64,000 nucleotides of DNA, taken from assembly GCF_030811555.1 (NCBI RefSeq), contig NZ_JAUSQZ010000001.1, forward strand, positions 7,561,241-7,625,240, given 5' to 3'. Shown here piece after piece: positions 37,699-39,626 of this stretch. Position 1 is the stretch's first letter. Every line of letters begins with the position of its first letter. Source of the stretch: Kineosporia succinea (GTDB taxonomy: Bacteria; Actinomycetota; Actinomycetes; Actinomycetales; Kineosporiaceae). The notes under the pieces were generated by a model, which worked only from the letters and a program-made list of their open reading frames with translations, was not told where the DNA came from and made no database searches. Both the position numbers and the translations under genes were made by a program.

Positions 37699-39168
37699 AT
37701 GCTCACCTTCGAAACCTCCGTCTTCGAAAGGGAGTACATCACCCTGGCCGACGGCCGGGAGGCCATCGTGCGCGGTGGCCGTCACCTCTTCGACCGGCTG
37801 CCGAGCGCCTTCGAGGGCGTCAACCAGATCGCCGTGATCGGCTGGGGCCCGCAGGGTTCCGCGCAGGCCCAGAACCTGCGCGACTCCCTGGCCGGGAAGC
37901 TGAAGGTGGTCGTGGGCCTGCGCGCCGGCTCCGGCTCGCGCGAGGCCGCCCGCGCGGCCGGTTTCACCGAGGAGAACGGCACCCTCGGCGAGATGTTCGA
38001 GGTGATCGCCGCGTCCGACCTGGTGCTGCTGCTGATCTCCGACGCCGCCCAGGTCGAGCTGCACGAGCAGATCTTCGCGGCGCTGCGCCCGGGCGCGACC
38101 CTCGGTCTCTCGCACGGCTTCCTGCTCGGCTTCCTCGACCAGCAGGGCGCCCGGTTCCCCGAGAACATCGACGTCATCGCCGTGTGCCCCAAGGGCATGG
38201 GCGCCTCGGTGCGGGCCCTGTACCTCCAGGGCGCGCAGACCAACGGGGCCGGGATCAACGCCAGTTTCGCGATCGAGCAGGACGTCAGCGGCCGCGCCAC
38301 CGAACGGGCCCTGGGCTGGTCGATCGGCCTCGGTGCGCCCTACACCTTCCAGACCACGCTGCGCTCGGAGTACCTGTCCGACCTGACCGGCGAGCGCGCC
38401 ATCCTGCTCGGCGGGGTGCACGGCATCGTCGAGAGCCTGTACCGGCGTTTCCGAGAGCAGGGCCTGGACGAGACCGAGGCGTACCGTCACTCGGTCGACT
38501 GCGTCACCGGCCCGATCTCGCGGACGGTCTCGAAGGAGGGGCTGCTGGGTCTGTACCGGCGGTTCGACGGTGAGGAGCGCACCGCTTTCCGGCGTGCGTA
38601 CGCGGCGGCCTACCCGGTGGGCCTGGAGCTGGTGCACGAGATCTACGACGAGGTCGCCTCGGGCAACGAGATCCGCAGCGTGATCCTGGCCGGTGAGCGG
38701 CTGAAGCGCTTCGGGATGGGCACGATCGACGGCTCCCCGATGTGGAAGGCCGGTGAGGTGGCCCGCGGCACCCGCGACGACGAGAAGCTGGTTCTCGACC
38801 CGGGCACCGCCGGTATCTTCTGCGGCGTGATGATGGCGCAGATCGACACGTTCTTCGAGAAGGGGCACCCGTACTCGGAGATCGCGAACGAGTCGGTGAT
38901 CGAGGCCACCGACTCGCTGAACCCGTACATGCACGCCCGGGGCGTGGCGTTCATGGTGGACAACTGCTCCACCACGGCCCGGCTGGGCTCGCGCAAGTGG
39001 GCGCCCCGGTTCGACTACCTGCTCACACAGGTGGCCTACCCGGCACTGGAGGACCCGCGGGCCGACCTCGACCTCGGCCTGCTCACGGCGTTCGAGGAGC
39101 ACCCGGTGCACGAGGTGCTGCGGGTCTGCGCGCAGATGCGCCCGTCCGTCGACATCTTCGTCGAGTGA
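37699..39168 (+). CDS. ilvC: Ketol-acid reductoisomerase, plant-type class II
   Basis: 489-residue NADPH-dependent enzyme of valine/isoleucine synthesis that isomerises and reduces acetolactate. The Rossmann motif [19 protein letters not shown] lies near residue 48. The two knotted helical domains follow, including [20 protein letters not shown] and [17 protein letters not shown]. Actinomycetes normally use the 330-residue class I enzyme. This one is long and resembles chloroplast KARIs more than E. coli IlvC (judged from memory). AAGGAG precedes the ATG. No ilvB/ilvN adjoins; the next gene encodes a MEKHLA protein and is coupled by GTGA. Confidence 0.92.
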
Positions 39169-39626
39169 GCACCGGGATGAACCCGCGCGGCGAGGAGTTC
39201 GCCGATCTGCTCCGGCGTAGTCACGTGGCTACGGTGGGACGTCCGCTCGCGCCGGAGGGGCTCTCCCGGGGAGAACTCCCGGTCTGGCTCTACGTCGCGC
39301 CGTTCGCCCTGCTGGCGCACGAGTTCTCGGACGACCCGGTCTTCGTCTACGCGAACCTGCAGGCGCAGAAGCTGTTCGAGTACGACTGGGACGAGTTCAC
39401 CGGCCTGCCCTCGCGGCTGTCGGCCGGTCCGGAAGACCGGTCGGCCCGGGCGGCGCTGCTTCAGGGGGTGGCCGAGAACGGGTTCACCGACGACTACCGG
39501 GGTCTGCGGGTGGCCCGTTCGGGGCGGCAGTTCTGGATCGAGCAGGTCACGGTCTGGAATGTTCCCGACACCGGGGGTGAGCCTTTCGGTCAGGCCGCCC
39601 TGATCCGCCGGTGGCAGGACGCCTGA
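39165..39626 (+). CDS. MEKHLA domain protein (PAS-related)
   Basis: 153 residues, almost entirely the MEKHLA domain: [20 protein letters not shown], then [20 protein letters not shown] and [20 protein letters not shown] is a PAS-like sensor domain known from the C-terminus of plant class III HD-ZIP proteins and from free-standing bacterial proteins; its ligand is unknown. The GTG start overlaps the ilvC stop as GTGA; an ATG at 39177 is the alternative. Coupling to a plant-type KARI suggests a linked role. Confidence 0.87.

Follow-up and report, generated by a model that had tools for sequence, protein, structure and literature searches.

An accessory plant-type ketol-acid reductoisomerase gene overlapping a MEKHLA gene in Kineosporia succinea and other actinomycetes

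Ketol-acid reductoisomerase (KARI) is a known herbicide and antibacterial target, and IlvY, the activator of the KARI gene ilvC, responds to the substrates of the enzyme. For stand-alone bacterial MEKHLA proteins we know of no assigned role. The plant MEKHLA domain is described as negatively regulating the protein that carries it, REVOLUTA, with the signal given as unknown (PMC4496561, PMC3794426). The KARI paralogues of Streptomyces are described as duplicates of ilvC, one of them inside an ilvBNCE operon, and the main text of that paper does not use the term class II (PMC4353338). No literature joining MEKHLA with ketol-acid reductoisomerase was found in a search that left most of the subscription literature outside, and no KARI-MEKHLA pair was found by title or start of abstract in the literature on bacterial plant-type KARI, KARI paralogues, IlvY, or bacterial and cyanobacterial MEKHLA. 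The locus described here is a two-gene unit of these two known families and is unreported as far as the literature was searched. It lies in a stretch of 64,000 nucleotides of Kineosporia succinea (assembly GCF_030811555.1, contig NZ_JAUSQZ010000001.1, positions 7,561,241 to 7,625,240), hereafter called the window.

The reductoisomerase and MEKHLA genes of the window

The first gene (37699..39168, plus strand; ATG at 37699, TGA at 39166-39168, read from the sequence) encodes a plant-type, or long, KARI of 489 aa. It is preceded by the ribosome-binding site AAGGAG (37686..37691, plus strand), which is likewise AAGGAG in locus L006, and by a 10-bp GC hairpin in the gap to the upstream sigma-factor gene (37633..37658, plus strand), a candidate terminator or leader found also in genome G107, with modest fold z-scores of -1.96 in the window and -1.43 in G107. 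Both Pfam domains scored above their cut-offs (KARI_N 110 bits, KARI_C 116 bits); the cut-off of the NCBIfam ilvC equivalog TIGR00465, a model of 314 positions, was missed by the 489-aa form (203.7 vs 226.15 bits). Among solved structures searched with phmmer, whole-length matches were obtained to rice KARI (3fr7, 631 bits) and to 1qmg, which we take to be spinach KARI (621 bits), with 60% identity to each of the two plant enzymes. The structure 1yrl, presumably the E. coli class II KARI, scored just 58.5 bits, and the remaining chains scored at most 107 bits, except 7toc (named mitochondrial; 175 bits). An earlier note on this DNA had described a 489-residue KARI with two quoted motifs, nearer to chloroplast KARIs than to class I enzymes; its coordinates, sequence and motifs were all present, and the scores bear out the resemblance. 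Seven magnesium and substrate positions, which we take to be spinach D315, E319, E492, E496, S518, K252 and H226, fell on the expected residues and were identical in the window KARI and in 93 of 93 aligned rows. At three positions (R/S/S, spinach numbering) that presumably hold the NADPH phosphate, the window matched spinach, as did 92 of the 93 rows, the remaining row being a gap; the catalytic residues were invariant in all 23 actinomycete rows. Because the active-site and NADPH-phosphate residues are retained, the window KARI should be active and NADPH-preferring.

The genome, a single contig of 8.07 Mb, has one further KARI, a class I enzyme of 343 aa with one KARI_C match, whose gene stands elsewhere on the chromosome, where it immediately follows ilvN and the end of ilvB. 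The class I ilvC for which the earlier note had recommended a search is thus present, in an ilvB-ilvN-ilvC set. With two proteins of this genome as tblastn queries, IlvN and the C-terminal part of IlvB, nothing was found in the whole window, in agreement with the earlier remark that no ilvB or ilvN is near, and neither was found by tblastn in any of 27 actinomycete sources. Since the class I ilvC set lies elsewhere and the window gave no IlvN or IlvB match, the window KARI is an extra enzyme beside class I IlvC.

The second gene (39165..39626, plus strand) shares four bases with the first, GTGA (39165..39168, plus strand), its GTG at 39165 lying in the KARI stop; this overlap, already read from the letters in the earlier note, was confirmed, and the same kind is found in nine of nine intact loci with KARI followed by MEKHLA. 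An alternative MEKHLA start in the window is the ATG at 39177; in L011 and L013 the sole start codon within the inspected bases is the one in the overlap. Judged from this arrangement, MEKHLA is probably translationally coupled to KARI. The product is a stand-alone, PAS-like MEKHLA protein of 153 aa that matched PF08670 at 153.4 bits (cut-off 23.7) over profile positions 2-142 of 143. Pfam returned MEKHLA and weak PAS matches only, with no DNA-binding domain and no output domain of the protein's own. In an AlphaFold2 model made with nine sequences (mean pLDDT 86.3) a PAS fold with extra N-terminal helices was predicted, and the nearest solved folds (best E 3e-8) were LOV domains for the most part, several from engineered fusion proteins, and also the FAD-binding PAS domain of NifL. 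The LOV flavin-adduct cysteine, taken by us to lie in an NCRFLQ-like motif, corresponds to serine at position 83 of MEKHLA (LPSRLSA, matched to the LOV motif by eye), invariant in nine of nine aligned rows. Two positions that are presumably LOV flavin contacts are arginine and isoleucine, again invariant in the nine rows (by eye). With the adduct cysteine and flavin contacts replaced, LOV photochemistry by MEKHLA is unlikely. This is the only MEKHLA match in the genome, and few genomes of the class have one: of 394, 17 passed the cut-off and 19 reached E 0.001.

Recurrence and origins of the pairing

Twenty-three actinomycete copies of the window's KARI clade were compared (the window, L006-L023, L141 and L150-L152), with flanks mostly of 6 kb, shorter at contig ends; MEKHLA was looked for by tblastn only in L138-L141 and L150-L152 and by HMM scan in other loci. 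KARI is followed by MEKHLA with a four-base (G/A)TGA overlap in nine copies (window, L006, L008-L014), and an intact MEKHLA stands just upstream of KARI in two (L016 and the Streptomyces plasmid L151). The upstream MEKHLA is split or cut short at an apparent insertion end in L152 and L018, insertions in broken MEKHLA genes having been recognised by eye, and L007 retains a broken remnant at the expected overlap. No MEKHLA is adjacent in the remaining nine copies (L015, L017, L019-L023, L141, L150). The pairing is real and recurrent: the earlier note had allowed that it might be seen in this genome only, and adjacency was found in 14 of 23 actinomycete copies, three of the 14 with a broken MEKHLA. 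The 23 copies are not independent: the window and L006 form a near-sister pair, as do L011 and L013, and the KARI rows of L018 and L152 are identical, so that these two may belong to a single lineage.

Beyond this clade, MEKHLA was found in the flanks of none of 63 other plant-type KARI loci; a weak PAS-type match in L055 proved to be a PAS stretch in a much larger frame. Thirteen of 17 actinomycete genomes with plant-type KARI had a MEKHLA match somewhere, which was very weak in G526 (24 bits) and came from a broken copy in G524; in G521, G525 and G529 a good MEKHLA is present and not adjacent to KARI. The other four genomes gave no MEKHLA match, that of L007, with its remnant only, being among them. 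With no adjacent MEKHLA at nine of 23 copies and no MEKHLA match in four of 17 genomes, KARI does not need it.

The MEKHLA tree (28 rows, 151 columns) rejected a single clade for the 11 intact KARI-linked MEKHLAs (AU p 1.4e-4) and for the two upstream ones (p 6e-5, a test picked once the tree was known), and was compatible with a single clade for the nine downstream ones (p 0.30). The KARI-linked label changes at least four times on this tree. As the KARI-linked MEKHLAs are not one clade, the pair has been formed or refreshed more than once. Distances of KARI and MEKHLA correlated at r 0.79 over 11 pairs and 0.84 over the nine downstream ones, values for which shared ancestry alone could suffice. 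Selection on both genes was purifying in the two pairs of loci compared, with dN/dS of 0.21 for KARI and 0.27 for MEKHLA between the window and G107, and 0.12 and 0.27 between L011 and L013.

Bacterial distribution and genomic neighbours

One genome per species was scanned with an alignment of the window KARI and two plant KARIs and with two peptide patterns, yielding 349 stretches that encode relatives of some degree. The best 80 of the 349 were kept, all near full length with 58-83% identity; 17 came from cultured actinomycetes and 63 from others, comprising Chloroflexota, Spirochaetota, Myxococcota, Latescibacterota, Desulfobulbaceae, Verrucomicrobiota, one cyanobacterium, a few uncultured Actinomycetota and more. 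Family searches covered the genomes of 44 of these 63 loci, with 19 left out, most genomes being incomplete and many metagenome assemblies; 41 showed the long-form pattern only and three also class I-like matches. Class I and plant-type KARI were both present in 17 of 17 actinomycete genomes searched (18 less that of L014), and four of the 17 (G515, G526, G528, G529) had at least two plant-type matches besides class I. A partial match in G515, L142, was dropped for want of a tblastn match at 1e-20, and G520 has a KARI piece of 22.9 bits. Within the window's order, two of 149 genomes matched at E 1e-60, both in the window's genus, of which four genomes were examined. In a sample of the class (up to four candidates scored per genome), two of 394 genomes matched at E 1e-90, one being the window's own and the other a member of a distant second clade, 58% identical.

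In a quick, midpoint-rooted KARI tree of 93 rows (91 different; 22 of 88 forks open; rice and spinach the only plants, and no E. coli sequence included) the window grouped, well supported, with its congener G107 and Micromonosporaceae inside the actinomycete clade, and rice and spinach branched elsewhere among the bacterial rows. A plant origin of the window KARI was not favoured, given its actinomycete neighbours and the position of the two plant rows. The plant-type KARI is a widespread bacterial form for which the label misleads, and the 41 of 44 genomes suggest that it is mainly bacterial and the sole KARI detected in many lineages. The earlier picture of two plant-like features brought together does not hold, since the KARI form is bacterial (best 80 relatives at 58-83%) with plants not its sisters, and MEKHLA too is common in bacteria, with 113 plasmid records at E 1e-6 or better, 79 of them Rhizobium plasmids. 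Grouping with ordinary bacterial class II enzymes, which the earlier note had raised as counting against its view, was found as far as the partners are bacterial long forms and was not found, by score, for the E. coli type. Plant-type KARI is also carried by three large linear Streptomyces plasmids (L150, L151, L152), in L150 within a stretch rich in insertion sequences. Phage carriage was considered and rejected: four phage records matched, but with only 45-46% query coverage and 32-36% identity.

The second, distant actinomycete clade (L119/L087, L138-L140) has a divergent LysR regulator beside KARI in three of four loci (L140 5182-7584, L139 4584-6955, L119 7021-9421), L138 being incomplete (438 bits). 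NCBIfam names that gene IlvY, over the cut-off in two loci and at 245.6 vs 246 bits in the third. Among the 63 other loci, 57 of which have at least 1 kb upstream, tblastn found a divergent IlvY-like gene on the upstream side of 12, at a distance of about 100-460 bases to the KARI match (168-240 bits; L084, at 78 bits and 1.4 kb away, was not counted). The other 51 gave no such neighbour by tblastn, so that having a dedicated sensor gene is the exception. In the window's group, tblastn showed an adjacent IlvY-like gene at none of the 23 copies, L018 offering only 360 bases upstream; the nearest IlvY match in the window, a LysR gene, scored 73 bits and lies about 5 kb off. In a minority of loci there is thus a precedent for a dedicated sensor gene next to plant-type KARI, and the window's group has MEKHLA there, which lends indirect support to a regulatory role. 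The suggestion of the earlier note that a sensor may here be tied to acetohydroxyacid chemistry is a fair one, and the IlvY-like genes beside some sister KARIs speak in its favour.

A wider conserved cluster was rejected, as no family besides KARI and MEKHLA was common to more than four of 19 sources (18 loci and the window), the family reaching four being a BTAD-type regulator. Flanks matched between the window and L006 and between L011 and L013, the remaining downstream pairs lying in different surroundings. A sigma factor and a LuxR regulator stand just upstream in the window and G107, their families being common to the window and L006 only. A BTAD-type regulator was found by tblastn near six of the 23 copies (window, L006, L008, L012, L014, L021) and near none of the other 17; in the window and G107 it comes immediately after MEKHLA. 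The window itself has five BTAD-type (SARP-like) genes (17465-19321, 29729-31720, 32865-34634, 39847-42744, 55741-58824), and with five matches there this regulator was treated as background and not as the pair's partner. No recurring resistance or biosynthetic cluster was seen near the pair. Window positions 36900-40000 had no Rfam match at E up to 1, which gave no support to an RNA leader or riboswitch; eight actinomycete loci gave one Rfam match, to an FMN riboswitch in L011 (4204-4332), which lies about 1.7 kb before KARI and precedes another gene near the pair. A conserved promoter was likewise set aside, a common upstream motif not being evident by eye in 14 loci.

Other neighbourhoods were noted in passing. 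Two MEKHLA-less KARI copies have related transporter-like genes nearby (by eye; L020 3458-4300 and L021 4679-5980, 52% identical over 271 aa), of which the one in L021 immediately precedes KARI. MEKHLA genes inspected elsewhere were mostly alone or beside varied genes. An argininosuccinate-synthase-like (argG-like) gene, named by eye and again for an amino-acid enzyme, immediately precedes MEKHLA in two genomes that belong to a single family within the window's class (L114 6234-8142, L116 2508-4399). On two Rhizobium plasmids (L154, L159) it follows an operon of an amino-acid ABC transporter and an M20 aminoacylase. On two Streptomyces plasmids it lies near a cupin gene, a sigma factor, a BTAD regulator and a 6-carboxytetrahydropterin synthase, the last adjacent in L156 and one gene away in L153.

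Possible role of the pair and its described relatives

The reading preferred here, at a rough probability of 0.45, is that of a two-gene operon in which an accessory, NADPH-dependent KARI is regulated directly by a coupled LOV-like PAS (MEKHLA) protein. The first gene would supply a catalytically complete enzyme of the long type, carrying out the same reaction as the housekeeping class I IlvC beside it. The second, translationally coupled gene would supply a small MEKHLA protein that may bind a small ligand, such as a 2-keto or hydroxy-keto acid, a flavin or another redox cofactor, and would act directly on the activity or stability of KARI as a dedicated regulatory partner, like IlvN for IlvB. 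The extra KARI would then work under particular metabolic or redox conditions only. Direct regulation is proposed because of the overlap, the lack of an output domain in MEKHLA and the lack of another equally regular regulator; the recurrent pairing in two gene orders, its more than one origin, the purifying selection, the invariant catalytic residues, the correlated distances, the IlvY precedent and the plant MEKHLA domain were also counted for it. The MEKHLA-less copies and genomes, the 0 of 63 loci elsewhere, the varied settings of other MEKHLA genes, the 51 of 63 loci with no IlvY-like neighbour seen, the unconserved LOV flavin residues and the BTAD-type genes near six of 23 copies were counted against it. 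The narrower proposal, that MEKHLA is a ligand-responsive regulatory subunit of KARI and in these actinomycetes stands where IlvY is found next to some other plant-type KARIs, is doubtful. Were it true, KARIs would have, to our knowledge, their first dedicated regulatory subunit, and stand-alone MEKHLA proteins of bacteria a first function.

The KARI might instead be a specialised isozyme, using another acetohydroxyacid substrate or insensitive to a KARI inhibitor of the soil, with MEKHLA a product-binding or storage protein or some other sensor and not a regulator of KARI. The lack of IlvN and IlvB matches in 27 actinomycete sources and the two or more plant-type matches in four of 17 genomes fit such an enzyme, as does the promiscuity or recruitment of Streptomyces KARI paralogues described in PMC4353338. 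Every catalytic position checked is unchanged, however, no resistance or biosynthetic cluster recurs and families other than MEKHLA reach at most four of 19 loci; the isozyme is considered unlikely. MEKHLA might also signal to a transcription factor or kinase, the coupling to KARI just equalising expression. For this one could cite the sigma-factor and LuxR genes that precede the pair in the window and G107, together with the BTAD-type gene near six of 23 copies and directly after MEKHLA in the same two genomes, and PAS proteins in general often act via partners. The former families, however, are common to the window and L006 only, and BTAD-type genes are abundant, five in the window, yet near none of 17 copies, so that indirect regulation of this kind seems quite improbable. 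Least likely of all is the hitch-hiking of two unrelated accessory genes on mobile DNA: KARI occurs on three Streptomyces plasmids, with insertion sequences near one, and three MEKHLA genes are broken, but nine of nine downstream loci, mostly in unlike surroundings, retain the four-base overlap, selection on MEKHLA is purifying in both pairs tested, and the pairing arose or was refreshed more than once. It is the kept overlap and the selection that place this explanation last.

Many soil and plant-associated bacteria have stand-alone MEKHLA proteins, and a conserved coupled partner is a direct way to a role; the recurrent pairing is a first testable clue to what such proteins do. If direct regulation of KARI by MEKHLA, the preferred reading, or any other regulatory pairing applies, there would be a new control point in branched-chain amino-acid synthesis, at KARI.

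Among described systems, the plant HD-ZIP III proteins have PF08670 in common with the window protein, which differs in standing alone at 153 aa without homeodomain, zipper or START domain. The Streptomyces KARI paralogues (ilvC2 and the KARI of the valanimycin cluster; PMC4353338) are likewise second KARIs beside a housekeeping one. The IlvY-IlvC pair likewise joins a KARI gene to a dedicated adjacent sensor-type gene; IlvY is a divergent LysR-type DNA-binding protein, whereas MEKHLA is co-oriented and overlapping, with no DNA-binding domain seen. Bacterial class I KARI (IlvC of ilvBNC) has its superfamily and Pfam domains in common with the window KARI, and in this genome it is the shorter protein, 343 aa with one KARI_C match, in its separate place behind ilvN and ilvB. 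The plant chloroplast KARI (3fr7, 1qmg) is alike in length, in whole-length identity of 60% and in catalytic and NADPH residues. A 6-residue insert of the two plant enzymes is absent from the window KARI and the other bacterial members inspected, and the window KARI differs further in that it is not a sister of the plant enzymes in the tree, is an accessory copy and is linked to MEKHLA.
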